A stretch of 64,000 nt of DNA from Erythrobasidium yunnanense (taxonomy: Eukaryota > Basidiomycota > Cystobasidiomycetes > Erythrobasidiales > Erythrobasidiaceae). Made by a program: the position numbers and the translations under genes. The notes under the pieces are model-generated. The model saw only the letters and a program-made list of their open reading frames with translations, was not told the DNA's origin and did no database searches. The stretch is taken from the NCBI GenBank assembly GCA_001600175.1, contig BCJC01000007.1:1574115-1638114 (forward strand), read 5' to 3'. Of the stretch, positions 10,650-37,588 are shown in pieces. The stretch's first letter is position 1. Each line of letters opens with the position of its first letter.

Positions 10650-11627
10650 ATGAACGACATCGTCCACTTCAAGGCGGATCCGCGAGTCAAGCGGTGGTGC
10701 TTGACCCTACCTGAAGAGTCCGACGATCCTGTCCCTAGGATACGCTCGATCCGAGTTTCGCGCTCAGCGCGTGCGATTGGCATGCAAGTCACAAGGCCAG
10801 AAAGCCGCGGCACCGTACATGCCTCGGACTCTGAGAGTTCGCAGCCGGATGCAGAGCTGGATATGGCAAAGTCGACCGTATCGAGAGCAAGCTCTAGCGC
10901 TCAAGCAAGTGCCCACCCCAGATGCAGATCTCGGTCAACGTCAGTAACACATTGCGCGTCGAATACGACATCGCCGTCATCGGAAGCAACTTCAGTGTCA
11001 TCAGCGTCCACTGGTTCTATATCGATTGGCTCTTCCTTACTCCAGAACGACTACAATCCGGGAGCCAAGCAGCCTCGATGGTACCGCAAACTACCTCCCG
11101 TGCTCCCCGGGGAAGGTCACAACAAGAAAGAAGGAACTCTCATGATGCATAGACAGACATCTTTGTGGCAAGCTATGCGACAGGATGAACAGGCAAGGAT
11201 CGATTGTGAAGATCAGAGAGATTATGGCCGGAACTTCGAGAAGTATGTCTGGGCATGTGAGGATACTCGGGCCCGATGGCATTAAATAAGCCAGATCAGA
11301 TGTAGGGTCGATCATACCGACTACATCGACTTGAAGCCAGCCATCAGAAAGCAGGTGATCAAGCTCTGCAACATCGCAGAGAATGCAGTACGCTGTACGC
11401 TCAATAAAGTCGACATCTCACAATTGGGCGACACAGAGCAGTTCATTGTCGACGGTTTCCGCGATGGTTTCCTGCCTAGCTACTGGAGTATGATCTATGC
11501 TTATGAGAGGCTGCATGGTATGTGGGCTGGGATTCATGATGAGCGCACGCCAAAAGCTCCTGGATCCAAGCCAAAGCCATCTCGCAAAAGATGCGCGTGG
11601 AAAGACCGACAAAACCACCCTCACTGA
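10650..11627 (+). pseudogene. Tandem copy 1 of an orphan gene family, interrupted by an in-frame stop
   Basis: Single-exon copy closely related to the gene at 11995-12957. Both start with an Asp/Arg/Trp segment (DPRVKRWCLTLP here, DDRVERWCMNLP there). Both have a Ser-rich middle, then QPRWYRKLPPVLPGEGH against HPKWYRKLRPVLPGEAH, and EKYVWACEDTRARW against EKYVWAWKDTQSRL. A TAA at 11283-11285 ends the frame after RWH. The same frame continues downstream with clear homology (NIAENAVRCTLNKVDI, DGFLPSYWSMIYAYERLHGMW) until 11627. One nonsense codon therefore separates two homologous halves, so it is either a recent pseudogene or makes a truncated protein. Function unknown. Confidence 0.6.
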
Positions 11628-11994: not shown

Positions 11995-12957
11995 ATGACC
12001 AACACTGCACGATTCCAGGAGGATGATCGCGTTGAGCGATGGTGCATGAACCTGCCGGACAAGGAGATGTCGAAGCCGCGAGCGATCTCGTATTCCAAAT
12101 CAAATAGACCGGATCGAAAGCCCACTAGCAGTCCTGCAAGCCGCGTTAGTGCCTCATCAGCGAGCCTGCACTCTCGAACCAAATCGGAGGACGCACTCAG
12201 GCGAACCTCCTCAGCCAAACCACAATCTCAATCTCAATCTCGCCCTCGCTCTGCTTCCGGCTCAAGCTTGCCAAGTGGGCCGCCGACTTCGCAATCTGCA
12301 TCAGTATCTTCTTCGCAGCCCACATCGCGAAGATCTTCTTCCTCTGGCTCTATGTCAATCGCTTCTTCTTTACTTCAGGACGACTACGATCTCTCGGCTC
12401 AGCATCCCAAATGGTATCGAAAGCTAAGGCCTGTGCTTCCTGGAGAAGCGCATGCTGAAGACGGCACCTTCACCATAGATGGAAAGACTGACCATTGGCA
12501 GGGTTTGCGCAGGAAGGAGCAGGCTAGAATCGACCGGGAAGACGACCGCGATCTCGAGAAAAATCTTGAGAAGTACGTCTGGGCATGGAAGGATACGCAA
12601 TCCCGGCTGTATGCGATCACACAGATACGAGCAGAAATCGAAGAGACTGACTGCTCGGACACAAGCCCTTCGGTAAAGGGGAAGCTAGTCAAGCGGCATA
12701 TCTTTGCAGTGCGTACAGCAAGCTATGCACTCAATAGAGCTGTATTTTCTCAAACCGGAAACGGCGACGAACTCGCTATCAGCGGGTTCTACACCGATTT
12801 CCTGCCAAGCTACTGGAGGGCTGTGGCTGCCCACGAACGGCTTGAAGGCATGTGGGCCGGGCTACAGGGGGAAAGTACGCCAAAGGCCGCTCGGACCGTG
12901 CCGCAACTATCCAGCAAGAAACGAACGCGGCGCCACGCGCATGGCCGCCCTCTATAA
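11995..12957 (+). CDS. Tandem copy 2 of an orphan gene family, intact
   Basis: An intronless frame of 320 residues. It has a short conserved N-terminal motif (FQEDDRVERWCMNLP) and about 100 Ser/Arg/Gln-rich disordered residues. Then comes SSLLQDDYDLSAQHPKWYRK and a helical C-terminal domain containing EKNLEKYVWAWKDTQSRLY, FAVRTASYALNRAVF and GFYTDFLPSYWRAVAAHERL. It ends in a basic tail (SSKKRTRRHAHGRP). No signal peptide or membrane segment is seen. I do not recognise the family. The lack of introns in an intron-rich genome, together with the tandem arrangement, suggests a young, locally expanding family. Confidence 0.65.
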   Translation: MTNTARFQEDDRVERWCMNLPDKEMSKPRAISYSKSNRPDRKPTSSPASRVSASSASLHSRTKSEDALRRTSSAKPQSQSQSRPRSASGSSLPSGPPTSQSASVSSSQPTSRRSSSSGSMSIASSLLQDDYDLSAQHPKWYRKLRPVLPGEAHAEDGTFTIDGKTDHWQGLRRKEQARIDREDDRDLEKNLEKYVWAWKDTQSRLYAITQIRAEIEETDCSDTSPSVKGKLVKRHIFAVRTASYALNRAVFSQTGNGDELAISGFYTDFLPSYWRAVAAHERLEGMWAGLQGESTPKAARTVPQLSSKKRTRRHAHGRPL

Positions 12958-26844: not shown

Positions 26845-27137
26845 AGACCTACCGAAGTCATACAATTCAGCAGCTGCTGCGCATTTATAATATGTTCTTA
26901 CGTGCTCTTCCTATTAGGACGATGTCTTTGTACTATCAAGGTTTCGGTGTCCACATAGATGTCAGTTTCCTCCGTATGTCTGTTCCCACTTTGTGTTAAC
27001 CTGTACCAAGCAATCAAGATACAAGCATCAAAATAAAGCGCATTCCTCTCTTCTCCCTGCTGTCTTCTATCTTGTTCCTTTACGGTGCTTTTACTGGATC
27101 TGCTCTCAGGCAATGCCTGGAGAATGCAAAGTGAAGC
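26845..27137. other. Convergent 3' spacer
   Basis: About 290 bases between SIP5 and the tRNA copy A terminator. No gene is seen. Confidence 0.4.
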
Positions 27138-27142
27138 AAAAA
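27138..27142 (-). terminator. RNA polymerase III terminator of tRNA copy A
   Basis: A run of five T on the minus strand, eight bases past the tRNA discriminator, as expected for Pol III termination. Confidence 0.7.
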
Positions 27143-27150
27143 GAACCGTG

Positions 27151-27235
27151 GGCCCTGCATGGGATTTGAACCCATGATCTCTGCCTCTATCCTGGTGCAC
27201 CGGAGAGCAGCGCCTTGCTACTTGGCCAGCAGGGC
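27151..27235 (-). tRNA. tRNA-Arg(CCG), copy A, with a 13-nt anticodon-loop intron
   Basis: On the minus strand the acceptor stem GCCCTGC (from 27235) pairs with GCAGGGC, followed by discriminator C. U8 is present. The D-arm GCC/GGC encloses AGTAGCAA. The anticodon stem CTGCT/GGCAG closes with a T-G wobble. The loop reads CTCCGG, then a 13-nt intron, then A, giving anticodon CCG (reads CGG, arginine). Variable loop is AGATC. The T-arm ATGGG-TTCAAAT-CCCAT contains a perfect B box. The intron sits after position 37, the canonical site for the tRNA endonuclease. G18 is present but G19 is a pyrimidine, slightly unusual. This copy is the uninterrupted reference for copy B. Confidence 0.8.
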
Positions 27236-32724: not shown

Positions 32725-34234
32725 ATGGCATCTCAGTCGCCGACTGTTACTCTGCGAACGCGAAAATCGCTCCATGATTCTCGAGTGACGCTGGTCACGC
32801 TCGCAAACGACAATGACACCACAAGTGATGCGCTTTCTACGTCTGCACCTGTATCTCCTGCTACAAGAGCAAGGAGGACGCGTGCGAAGCCCGAAGAATC
32901 AGAGAGCAATCCAAGTACTCCGGCAAAAAGCAAGCGAGCCCGAGCTATAAAGGAAGAAGATGCAGACGACGACTACAAGACCGCGAAGAGGCCATCTCCT
33001 TCTCCTCGCAAAAGCTCTCCCACGAAATTGCGGGCGAAGCTATTAGAGGCGCATCCTGAGCCTGCGCGATGGAAGGAGACCTATCAAATTGTGCGCGATG
33101 CTTCGAATACTTCACCAGAGCATCATCTGATTAGTGTCCCGACAGATCAAGAAGCAGCGGGAAGGCATAGTCGCGGCTGTCGATCTGATGGGGTGCGATG
33201 CGATAATAGGCATGAAGGACGAAGAAGCCATACCTGATAGGGTGAGCTGTCGCGTTGATCAACATTGATCCTCGCTAATAAATGCGTAGGACCGGCGCTT
33301 GGCAAGCCTCATATCCCTTATGCTATCGAGCCAGACGAAAGATCCCGTAACGCACGAAGCTACGATGAATCTGCGGCGTAATCTACAAGGCGGTCTATGC
33401 TTGGAGGGTATACTATCAGCAACGGATGCTGAGATACAGGTGCGCCTGGCCTGCGTCTTCCTGCCTCTATCCATCCTGGAAGGCCGGGACTCTTCTTGCT
33501 TGTAACAGTCGAGAACTGATTAGATCGCATCATAGGCATGCATCAACAAAGTGGGCTTCTGGAGACGCAAGACAGATTACATCAGAAGGACTGCCGAAAT
33601 GCTCCGCGACAGATTTGACGGGGACGTGCCAAAGACGATAGACAACCTTCTCATATTGCCTGGAGTCGGACCTAAGATGGGCTTTCTCGCGCTCCAAGCT
33701 GCTTGGGGTATACAGGAAGGGATTGGTGTAGACACGCATGTGAGCCCGGCCGCTGCGGGCCTTTTTACGAAAATGAGGCTGATTCACGTCCAGGTACATC
33801 GCATCACGAATCGACTCGGCTGGCATAGAAAGCCTACGACAGACCCTGAAGAAACAAGAGTCAATCTCGAAAGCTGGCTACCGCAAGAATACCACCACGA
33901 CATCAATATCATGCTTGTCGGTCTGGGCCAGACCATCTGCTTGCCTATTGGACCAAAATGCGATTTGTGCCATCTTGGGCAGATGGAAGACAGTCCTTGT
34001 CCTTCGAAGCGCAAGGTACTCGTCAAGCAAGCCAAGGTGAAGAAGGAAGAGCAGCCGTCAGGAGAAGTCGGGCCGCTTGCCGACTCGGTGCTTGAGGTAG
34101 AAGAAACCGAGAGCAAGCCCATCATAGACATCAAGCTAGAGACTGTAGATGGACCATTGGAAGCGCGACCCGAAGTGAAAGAGGCGCCGACCAAGAAATC
34201 ACCTTATTTCGCTGCAGCAGCCACAAGCTGGTGA
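32725..34234 (+). CDS. NTH1: Endonuclease III-type DNA glycosylase/AP lyase
   Basis: Five exons (32725-33090, 33146-33241, 33290-33439, 33536-33739, 33794-34234) join in phase to 418 residues. A basic, Ser-rich N-terminus of about 120 residues may hold nuclear or mitochondrial signals. The HhH-GPD core follows: RRLASLISLMLSSQTKDPVT, INKVGFWRRKTDYI, and the helix-hairpin-helix LPGVGPKMGFLALQA with the catalytic Lys. Next are GVDTHVHRITNRLGW with the catalytic Asp and the iron-sulfur ligands CLPIGPKCDLC, with a last Cys in SPC. It removes oxidised pyrimidines and cuts the abasic strand in base excision repair. The spacing to the fourth Cys is longer than in bacterial Nth. An acidic tail follows. 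The first intron, with CTGAT branch site, restores ETYQI/IKKQREGIVAAVD. Confidence 0.92.
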
Positions 34235-34394
34235 AGCGCCACCTTACTGTACACAATACTATTGAGTGTCTATGAGCTATGCTACAATCGGATGATATCT
34301 AAGGTGGAACATCATAAACCTGGGACAGCCTGTCCCTGTTCACAGCTGAAGATCTAGATTATGGAAGAGTGCTGACCTCAAGCCCTGCTGGCCA

Positions 34395-34445
34395 GTAAGT
34401 CTACCCTTACCCATCATCAGTCCTTGCCTAATTCCTCGGTTATAG
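34395..34445 (+). other. 51-nt GT-AG insertion in tRNA copy B (D arm)
   Basis: It begins GTAAGT, has CTAAT at 34428-34432 as a branch site and ends TATAG. Length and signals match the protein-gene introns of this window. Confidence 0.7.
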
Positions 34446-34494
34446 AGTCGTAAGGCGCTGCTCTCCGGTACCTATCAGGATAGAGGCAGAGATC

Positions 34495-34549
34495 GTAAGG
34501 GTCTTATTCCATTCAGCTTGCCTCAAGCCTTTCCTAACAAGAACAATAG
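34495..34549 (+). other. 55-nt GT-AG insertion in tRNA copy B (before the T arm)
   Basis: It begins GTAAGG, has a perfect CTAAC branch site at 34534-34538 and ends AATAG. Confidence 0.7.
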
Positions 34550-34586
34550 ATGGGTTCAACTCCCATGCAGGGCCCCAGCGGTTTAC

Positions 34587-34591
34587 TTTTT
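34587..34591 (+). terminator. Pol III terminator-like T run after tRNA copy B
   Basis: Five T residues 12 bases past the discriminator, the same arrangement as at copy A. This argues that a Pol III transcript is or was made. Confidence 0.6.
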
Positions 34592-34682
34592 GGCCTTTGG
34601 AGCCTCTTCCTGAGGGGAAGATGAAGCAGGAGTAGTGAGTAGAAACGAAGGACGATGCTTTCTTTTGATGCTTGTATCTTGA

Positions 34683-37588
34683 TTACTTTGTCCAAACTGC
34701 TGCAGCATATGAGCCCTGCCGTTTATGCTGCTTATCCCCACCGGTCAGCGTATCTAGCGCTTTCTGTCGTTCTTGTCTATCTTCATCCGAAATAAAAGCA
34801 GGACTCCTCCCAGAAGCTCGGGAGTACCAACTGCTTGTCCCAGATTGCCGAAGTTGCAGTGGTTTCAGGCGGCTCCCCTCTTTGCTGCTTCTCATTCTCC
34901 ATATATGCTGCCGAAGGAGGAGCTAAAGCTGATTTGTTGAAGATCGGAGGATTATACCAACCATGGCCGTAGATATCTGAGAACGTAGGACTTCTTGCTG
35001 AACCAGACTCTGATGCTTCCGGCTTGTTGTGCGCAGGCCAAGGGTTTGCATATGAGTACGGCGGCGGCGTAGGTATTCTAACCATTTCGATCTGATCATG
35101 TATGCTTGGCAGATCTTCCTTCTGTTTCTCCTTGTCTTGCTTGCCCAAGCGGAACAGACCCAGTAAGCCCTTCTTAAAGGAGAACTTGCTGGTCTTTTCC
35201 GCTCGTTTACGTTGGGCTCGGAGTCGCCAGAGCACAATCAGTAGCACTAGTAGACCGATGATGCCCAAGCTGACGAGAATATATCCCCAAATTGGAACCG
35301 TTTTTCCTTCCTCGTCTGAAGAAGGTAATGATGTCCTCGATTTGACACTGACCAGATCTTCGAGACATACACTCAAGCTGGTAGTCATTGCGCAGCTAGC
35401 AGGCACACAGCTGCCTTGCTGTAAGACCGTCCGAGCTGGACATGCCATGCATTGACTTGGTCCCGGTCCAGCACAGGAGGCACACGAAGCATCGCAAGCT
35501 TTGCACGAGCCGCTAGCAGCTTCAAAATATTGGTTTGACGAGCATGTAGACACGCAGCTCTTTGTAGCTGTCAAGACGGGTCGCGTCGTGGGGCAGCTTG
35601 TGCAGGAATCAAGCTTGTCGGAACAGGTTGCGCAGTCTGGATGACATGGACTGCAAGGCTGGGTGTCGTCGATGCGGAAGAAGCCAGATGGACATGTTGT
35701 TCCAGGTGTGCACCTGCCTCCGACTGCGATTTGACCAGCAGGACAGCTCGTGCAGAAGTCGGAGGAACCTTCGCATGTTGCACATGAGGAGGAGCAGGCT
35801 GAGCAGCTTGGAGTGTCTGAAGATGTAGCGAAGAAGCCAGTTGCACAGCTTGAGATGCATCTTCCGCTGACCAAGAATAGGCCACCGAGGCATCTTGAGC
35901 ACTGTATGCTGCTTCAACTATTGCTTGATGATGGCGACGAGTTGCTACCAGCGGTGCAGCCAGCGGGAAGAGCTGTAAGAAGCACTTCATTAGTCCCTTA
36001 TCTGCGGATGCTTAGGATGGGCCCTCACTGTCGCAGACTTTCTTCTCGTTGTTGAAGATGTATGCCAGAGCGTTGCTGCTGTTTATGATCGATCCATCGC
36101 AGACTCCCGTCGTCGCGTCAACCGCAACACAGCGACCCTGTAGCAGGCCTCTTCCACTCGAGCAGCTCAAGCACTGATCCACACCTGCTCCTCTACAAGT
36201 CTCGCAAGCTGCATTGCAAGGGCTGCATGTTTGGGCCGAAGAAAGGAAGGTCCCGTCCGCGCATGAGGTGAAAGTCGTCCCGTTCGAAGGAAGGAAGCGG
36301 GCTGCAATGCATTGTTGAGGATTATCGTTGGATGGACTTAGGCCGGGTGCGCAGGAGGAACAGGTGCCTGTGTTTGCTGCACAGGCGACACAGCCGGGCG
36401 CACAAGCTAATGAGAGCACGTTATTAGCCGTCGTTGATATGAGTCGTGTCGTGTTCACTCACTGACGCAGTCACCGGTACTGTCCTGATAGAAGCCCGTC
36501 TGGCATACACTGCACTTCTTCCCACCAGCAGCATCTCCCCAGCCAGGCGAGCATGTACATAATTCAGTGCCGCCCGCACATACTCCATTGACACAGTCAC
36601 AAGCGTCGGCCGCCGCTTCTAAAGCGGGCGATATGCAACGTCCAGAGCCTGCTATGCCTTCGTCACAGGTACTGCCATCGGAGCAGCTTGGACAGGACGT
36701 GCATTGGGGCCCGAAACGTCCTGGTTCGCACTGGTCTGTTTGGCAAGATATGTCAGCGAATGCAGGTGAAGGTGATGAGAAGCTGATGCTTACCGCAAGA
36801 AGCGCCTGTAAATCCTGCTGCACAAGTACATGTACTTTCAAGCGAACATACGCCTCCCGATGCGCAAGCCGGCGAGCACGTCGTGCCTTGTATATCCGAG
36901 ATCTCCCAATTCCCGTTTCTCAATTGCAGAGGTAGTTGACTGACATCTGCGCTTCCTGACCAGAGGACGACTCTCTGCATGCCATTTCCGGACGTAGGCA
37001 GGTTCGCTACTGCTCTTATATTCGATGAGAGCAAGAACGAGAGCGGCGTGAAAGAGGACGTAGCGTTCTGAACGAACGAATCATTGAATGATAATAAAGA
37101 AGTCGATCCAGCGAAGAAAGTGCTTGAATAGATAATCAAGCCAGAAGATTGGCTGATACTTGCAGCGACGCTGTTCACAGTGGATGGAGAAGAGCCACTT
37201 TGGGAAAGCTGGAAGCCTGGGTTGGTAGATGCGGAGACGGCCGTACTTGAGAAGAATGGGTCGAGAAGTGTCGAATTGGCGCCTGCGCTCGATCGGGTGG
37301 TGTATGTGCCGGGAAGGAGCAAGGCGGAAGAAGGTGTTGAAGAGTTGGGATTGCCAGTGATAGATATGCGTACGCCGGCTGTACAGTCATGAAGTCAGTA
37401 TCTGCATATGCGACATTGTAAAGCCTCGTACCTTTGGCAGAGACTTGGCCTCGAATACAGCCTATCGAGGGCGCGCACACCATGTCTGCAGTAGTAGAAG
37501 TACTGTTATTGGATTGTGCGAGCAGGCATTGTGCCTGCATTAATGCGAAGAGGACGAGATGCGAAGGCATCTTGGACCATTTGAGCAT
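34683..37588 (-). CDS. Cysteine-rich (furin/growth-factor-receptor-like) type I membrane protein
   Basis: The start at 37588 or the Met just inside it (MPSHLVLFALMQAQCLLAQS) gives a signal peptide. An extracellular region follows without obvious motif. Cys-rich modules then run over many exons: CSPACASGGVCSLESTCTC (EGF-like), CDCVNGVCAGGTELCTC, and repeated C-x2-C-x3-C furin-like units such as CSACSSSCATCEGSS and CSPCHPDCATCSDK. One membrane helix is present (WGYILVSLGIIGLLVLLIVLW, near 35230-35300). A cytoplasmic tail follows with basic and Pro-rich parts (RIPTPPPYSYANPWPAH). The architecture recalls a receptor or cell-surface sensor. The final residues are unclear: one frame ends at 34783, while the overlapping frame to 34683 (ISDEDRQERQKALD) looks coding, so a small unseen intron or frameshift is likely. 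Function unknown. Confidence 0.75.

Follow-up and report, generated by a model that had tools for sequence, protein, structure and literature searches.

Introns are known in the U1 and U5 genes of Rhodotorula. According to the accessible part of PMC5832005, just two small structured RNAs, U3 and U6, are known to date to carry an intron frequently, and a title in its reference list assigns an intron to the U6 gene of fission yeast. Abstracts describe U6 small nuclear RNA (snRNA) as a product of RNA polymerase III (Pol III). Ectopic introns of transfer RNA (tRNA) genes are reviewed for red algae and nucleomorphs (PMC4090602; PMC3978253), the closest architecture to the one described here being that of a Cyanidioschyzon merolae tRNA with introns at positions 12/13, 37/38 and 53/54 (PMC9602550). 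Outside those groups, insertions in the D or T arm are regarded as likely pseudogenes (PMC4090602), and tRNA splicing is treated as separate from, and independent of, the spliceosome (PMC13149111). In the available portions of the two reviews, the term ‘spliceosom’ is absent from PMC4090602 and appears once in PMC3978253, with reference to protein genes. Here, we describe a tRNA gene, hereafter copy 1, that carries two extra inserts, in a 64,000-nt stretch of the basidiomycete Erythrobasidium yunnanense (contig BCJC01000007.1, positions 1,574,115 to 1,638,114; hereafter the window). The anatomy of the inserts supports their assignment to the spliceosomal (U2-type) introns.

As far as the available descriptions go, copy 1 resembles the fungal U6 snRNA and U3 small nucleolar RNA genes in that a short structured RNA, made by Pol III in the case of U6, is interrupted by GT-AG introns with branch sites; it differs from them in that the host is a tRNA and that two such introns and an endonuclease-type intron are combined in one gene. 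Whereas the C. merolae introns are of the bulge-helix-bulge (BHB) type cut by the tRNA endonuclease, the inserts of copy 1 begin with GT and end with AG, contain branch sites and give no BHB helix beyond what chance would produce. The canonical eukaryotic 37/38 intron is present in copy 1 and in its uninterrupted paralogue, copy 2 (15 and 13 nt, respectively), but it is the extra pair, located at 13/14 and 48/49, that bears spliceosomal signals. New short introns in fungi may derive from introner-like elements (PMC4457414), although no repeated family is found in this window and the word ‘tRNA’ does not occur in the accessible main text of that paper. No earlier report of spliceosomal introns in tRNA was among the literature matches listed, which covered few subscription journals. 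A first-pass annotation of the locus had held that spliceosomal processing of Pol III tRNA precursors is not known as an established phenomenon; for tRNA this agrees with the matches listed, and it has to be qualified for U6, itself described as a Pol III product.

Anatomy of the interrupted gene

Copy 1 spans 34382-34574 on the plus strand and copy 2 spans 27151-27235 on the minus strand, 7 kb away. In the alignment of the two, copy 1 has 51 extra nt between tRNA positions 13 and 14 and 55 extra nt between positions 48 and 49, and the coordinates given for both inserts in the first-pass annotation were right. The components of the two genes are as follows.

34382..34394, plus strand: tRNA exon 1, positions 1-13, with the acceptor 5' strand and the 5' side of the D stem, placed by alignment to copy 2
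34395..34445, plus strand: spliceosomal-type intron 1, 51 nt, at 13/14, with a GTAAGT donor, CTAAT at 34428-34432 and a TATAG end
34446..34494, plus strand: tRNA exon 2, positions 14-48, containing the 15-nt canonical 37/38 intron
34495..34549, plus strand: spliceosomal-type intron 2, 55 nt, at 48/49, with a GTAAGG donor, CTAAC at 34534-34538 and an AATAG end
34550..34574, plus strand: tRNA exon 3, with the T arm including an intact B box, the acceptor 3' strand and discriminator C
34587..34591, plus strand: T5 terminator of the Pol III type, 12 nt beyond the end of the copy 1 tRNA
27151..27235, minus strand: copy 2, uninterrupted paralogous tRNA with a 13-nt 37/38 intron, 49.8 bits with the Rfam tRNA model
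27138-27142, minus strand: T5 run, 8 nt beyond the 3' end of the copy 2 tRNA

When its exons are joined in silico, copy 1 yields a tRNA of 72 nt, the length of copy 2, with all 20 of 20 stem pairs of a complete cloverleaf, so that exact removal of the inserts does restore the stems and the mature length, as had been claimed. The accompanying statements, that the acceptor, T arm, B box and T5 terminator are intact and that copy 1 has an additional 37/38 intron, were likewise borne out. There is no stem decay in joined copy 1; the changes present are an encoded CCA and three substitutions, all in loops, among the 72 positions shared with copy 2, where copy 1 carries C17, T19 and C58.

The boundaries of both inserts are uniquely fixed, and with them their GT and AG ends, because sliding a boundary by a single base breaks the match to copy 2. 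A free scan for T arms and acceptor strands with a matching 7-mer within 400 nt upstream retrieved these two loci and no other, one on each strand, thereby confirming the pair; the same scan of ten shuffled sequences gave 0-3 matches per strand, and its outcome is not in itself significant. The unspliced DNA of copy 1 elicits no tRNA call from either ARAGORN or the Rfam tRNA model, showing that tRNA finders can overlook genes of this kind. Given the joined sequence, ARAGORN places the intron elsewhere and calls a Trp(CCA) tRNA. The original assignment to tRNA-Arg(CCG) is, nonetheless, the most likely one on the assumption that the third intron sits at 37/38. An ARAGORN call is no proof of exact boundaries, because 46 of 49 boundary shifts of up to 3 nt in either direction still result in some tRNA call; such calls were also obtained for 261 of 3321 same-length deletions and 18 of 151 pairs of GT-AG removals, and for none of the 33 single GT-AG removals.

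Intron-like features of the inserts

Both inserts start with GTAAG and end with ATAG, and GT and AG stand at all four boundaries fixed by the paralogue. The branch motifs described in the first-pass annotation are also there, CTAAT lying 13 nt from the end of intron 1 and CTAAC 11 nt from the end of intron 2. In random inserts, 400,000 for either length, GTRNG...CTRAY...AG with the branch motif 8-16 nt from the end appeared at frequencies of 2.0e-5 (51 nt) and 2.8e-5 (55 nt), the pattern having been chosen post hoc. In the window itself, the strict pattern GTAAG...CTAAY...AG occurs three times on the plus strand, two of these occurrences being the inserts, and not at all on the minus strand, with 1.65 expected per strand. 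The pattern alone is thus not rare in 64 kb, and its weight derives from its coincidence with boundaries that are set by copy 2.

For comparison with mRNA introns of the same region, a search of the window for joinable open reading frames (ORFs) provided 39 candidate introns, some at shared sites, with the mode at 50-59 nt (14 of 39). The local profile was built from 18 short candidate introns: 17 ORF-joining candidates of 49-65 nt, one per site, and a 54-nt intron of an NTH1-like gene (33740-33793), which was placed by alignment to the structure chain of an endonuclease III-like protein 1. It did not include two alternatives at sites already represented (66 and 52 nt), a candidate of 68 nt and all longer ones. 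Modelling of local introns by codon bias produced no candidate in one attempt and 4 in another. The 18 candidates measure 49-65 nt (median 56 nt) and have the branch motif 10-16 nt from the end. The tRNA inserts agree with them in size, as had been stated, and in layout, and less well in the fine profile.

The cores of intron 1 and intron 2 may be weakly alike. Their local alignment score was reached by 0.05-0.6% of shuffles and their global score by 3-4% in one version and 6.5% in another, in both cases in tests made post hoc. Neither insert has a relative in the window that scores above shuffled queries, and thus no repeated or introner family was found there. The segment ACCCTTAC of intron 1 is complementary to GTAAGGGT at the start of intron 2 (34396-34410 and 34495-34506); local complementarity of this extent was reached by 6.9% of shuffles and may be due to chance. 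An 8-nt direct repeat, TCGTAAGG, is present at 34448-34455 in exon 2 and at 34493-34500, across the true intron 2 donor.

Proposed processing of the tRNA

We consider the chances about even that copy 1 is a functional, or was until recently a functional, tRNA gene with two U2-type introns that the spliceosome would remove before normal tRNA processing. How the gene would be transcribed and spliced, whether its product would be charged and in which direction copy 1 changed, we infer from the sequence. A duplicated nuclear tRNA gene would have gained the two introns after its separation from copy 2; in the alternative direction, copy 1 would have kept both introns and copy 2 would have lost them. 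With its intact B box, weakened A box and T5 terminator, the gene would most simply be transcribed by Pol III, read-through by RNA polymerase II (Pol II) being the alternative. Both introns would then be taken out by the spliceosome in the nucleus, and the resulting ordinary pre-tRNA, with the 37/38 intron still in place, would be passed on to RNase P, tRNase Z, the tRNA endonuclease and ligase. The more specific proposition, that this tRNA needs the spliceosome (at 13/14 and 48/49) as well as the tRNA endonuclease (at 37/38) and is made from a Pol III precursor, is tentative, and we would give it somewhat less than an even chance.

Several features point towards spliceosomal removal from a working gene. 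GT and AG at all four fixed ends, the GTAAG donors and the CTAAY motifs 13 and 11 nt from the intron ends are consistent with it, as are the length and branch distance shared with the local candidate introns, the low frequency of the pattern in random inserts, the intact B box and terminator and the lack of a BHB helix at intron 2. All stems are intact in the joined RNA, while the upstream flank can no longer be aligned. As far as the available descriptions show, U6 offers a precedent by analogy, being a Pol III RNA with spliceosomal introns. If the proposal is correct, the spliceosome can accept a tRNA precursor, the U6 precedent would extend to tRNA and an unexpected way of making tRNA would have been found; whether Pol III transcripts undergo splicing could also be tested at this one locus. 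With regard to intron gain, if the new introns arrived by way of RNA, their target would have been a pre-tRNA and not the mature form, because copy 1 has kept the 37/38 intron.

Other observations weigh against this proposal. The intact copy 2 renders copy 1 dispensable, and the location of all three differences in loops (P ~0.08) is weak evidence when taken alone. The A box is split by intron 1: relative to the generally known consensus, copy 2 and joined copy 1 have 7 of 7 specified bases, and the interrupted DNA has 5 of 7. A CCA is encoded at 34575-34577, directly after the discriminator of copy 1, and none in copy 2; to our knowledge, eukaryotic tRNA genes normally lack an encoded CCA. 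A loop change in exon 2 creates a cryptic GTAAGG donor that copies the donor of intron 2, and splicing from it would skip the anticodon arm. Finally, the inserts fit the local intron profile imperfectly. Intron 1 scores 15.6 and intron 2 13.1, below all 18 training introns (16.9-24.9), and scores as high are attained by 136 (1.2%) and 298 (2.6%), respectively, of the 11,611 GT-AG intervals of the window; the branch context is CCTAAY in both inserts and RCTRAY in 17 of the 18 local introns. This is, however, a demanding yardstick, given that the training introns were themselves selected for CTRAY.

Alternative explanations

The strongest alternative, which we consider unlikely although it deserves to be taken seriously, is that copy 1 died recently: real introns, whose source might be an introner-like element or reverse splicing, would have entered a dispensable duplicate, or the gene would have fallen into disuse soon afterwards, and no tRNA would be made. 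The presence of intact copy 2 at a distance of 7 kb, the split A box, the encoded CCA, the cryptic donor and the atypical branch sites would all be compatible with a dead gene, and the possible weak likeness of the intron cores is what a shared source would predict. Moreover, according to the accessible part of PMC4090602, eukaryotic tRNA genes with short insertions in the D or T arm usually belong to a larger set of synonymous genes and are presumed pseudogenes. Against a dead copy speak the 20 of 20 stem pairs and the retention of donor, branch site and acceptor in both inserts, and the inserts have no relative elsewhere in the window above the level of shuffled queries.

Rather less probable is that the introns are spliced from a Pol II transcript, either of the 3' region of the NTH1-like gene or of another Pol II RNA, with the tRNA being freed by RNase P and tRNase Z or never being freed. 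Pol II transcription of copy 1 is possible because it lies ~150 nt downstream of the NTH1-like gene on the same strand, and such transcription is naturally coupled to splicing. The earlier suggestion that the tRNA may need Pol II stands to this extent; a need for it does not follow. Copy 1 has a B box and a T5 terminator, as does copy 2, and an A+T stretch that looks TATA-like by eye precedes both copies, with no sign of read-through at the locus.

It is highly improbable that we are dealing with ectopic tRNA introns of the kind found in red algae and nucleomorphs, which the tRNA endonuclease would excise at BHB motifs. The C. merolae gene with introns in the D arm, anticodon and T arm (PMC9602550) makes such an arrangement conceivable, and for the Guillardia theta nucleomorph the available part of PMC3978253 reports many ectopic introns with no defined BHB. 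At intron 1, a candidate central helix of 4-5 bp, rich in wobble pairs, can indeed be drawn, but 26% of random ends placed beside exon 1 give a helix of at least 4 bp, and in the helix search intron 2 formed no helix between exon end and intron end of even 3 bp. As a positive control, the same search recovered the 37/38 helix of each copy, 3 bp long. Neither of the two extra junctions thus qualifies as a BHB, in agreement with the spliceosomal assignment made at first pass, and two GTAAG...CTAAY...AG inserts at fixed boundaries would have to be a coincidence. Equally improbable is the recruitment of tRNA-derived sequence as exons of a non-coding or 3'-untranslated Pol II RNA without tRNA function, which would account for splice signals flanking the exons, with the tRNA supplied by intact copy 2, but not for perfect acceptor, anticodon and T stems and a retained 37/38 intron.

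Other classes of element were rejected. Group I and group II introns are excluded by the size of the inserts (51 and 55 nt) and by the lack of any Rfam match at the gathering score; a permissive Rfam search returned two unrelated weak matches only (E 3.3 and 4.2). A retrocopy of a mature tRNA is ruled out by the retention of the 37/38 intron, and a tRNA-derived short interspersed nuclear element by the T5 run that separates the tRNA from a 38-nt element shared with the flank of copy 2.

Flanking regions and genomic context

The B box is intact in both copies and a T5 terminator follows each of them. The predicted fold of unspliced copy 1 RNA retains the acceptor stem and the T arm. Sequences just downstream of the two copies are still alike (z 4.1), whereas the upstream flanks cannot be aligned (z 0.8) and neither can the sequence beyond the shared element (z 0.3), which is located as follows.

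34657..34694, plus strand: 38-nt element, 34 of 38 positions identical to 27002-27039 (other orientation) in the downstream flank of copy 2, z 11.9

It may have been left over from the unit that was duplicated, or it may be a conserved element. In both flanks it follows the tRNA copy and lies beyond the 3' end of a convergent ORF, a different one in each case.

Five pattern scans, three of viral contigs and two of genome contigs, detected no relative, fungal or other. The sole match proved to be a chance match within an ORF of an IMG/VR contig and has no Rfam match.

On its upstream side, copy 1 is preceded by the NTH1-like ORF, which is encoded on the same strand and ends near 34234, ~150 nt away. 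On the downstream side, an ORF on the opposite strand, weakly RCR/VSP-like (both below the Pfam cut-off), ends near 34783. This ORF (34786-35913) resembles its same-strand neighbour at 35760-36646 (22-32% protein identity), and the two are probably tandem paralogues. The proteins encoded nearby link the window to fungi only loosely, and its short CTRAY introns and gene content would fit a basidiomycete. Elsewhere in the window, a direct DNA repeat of ~260 nt, 67% identical, occupies 11007-11266 and 12340-12596.
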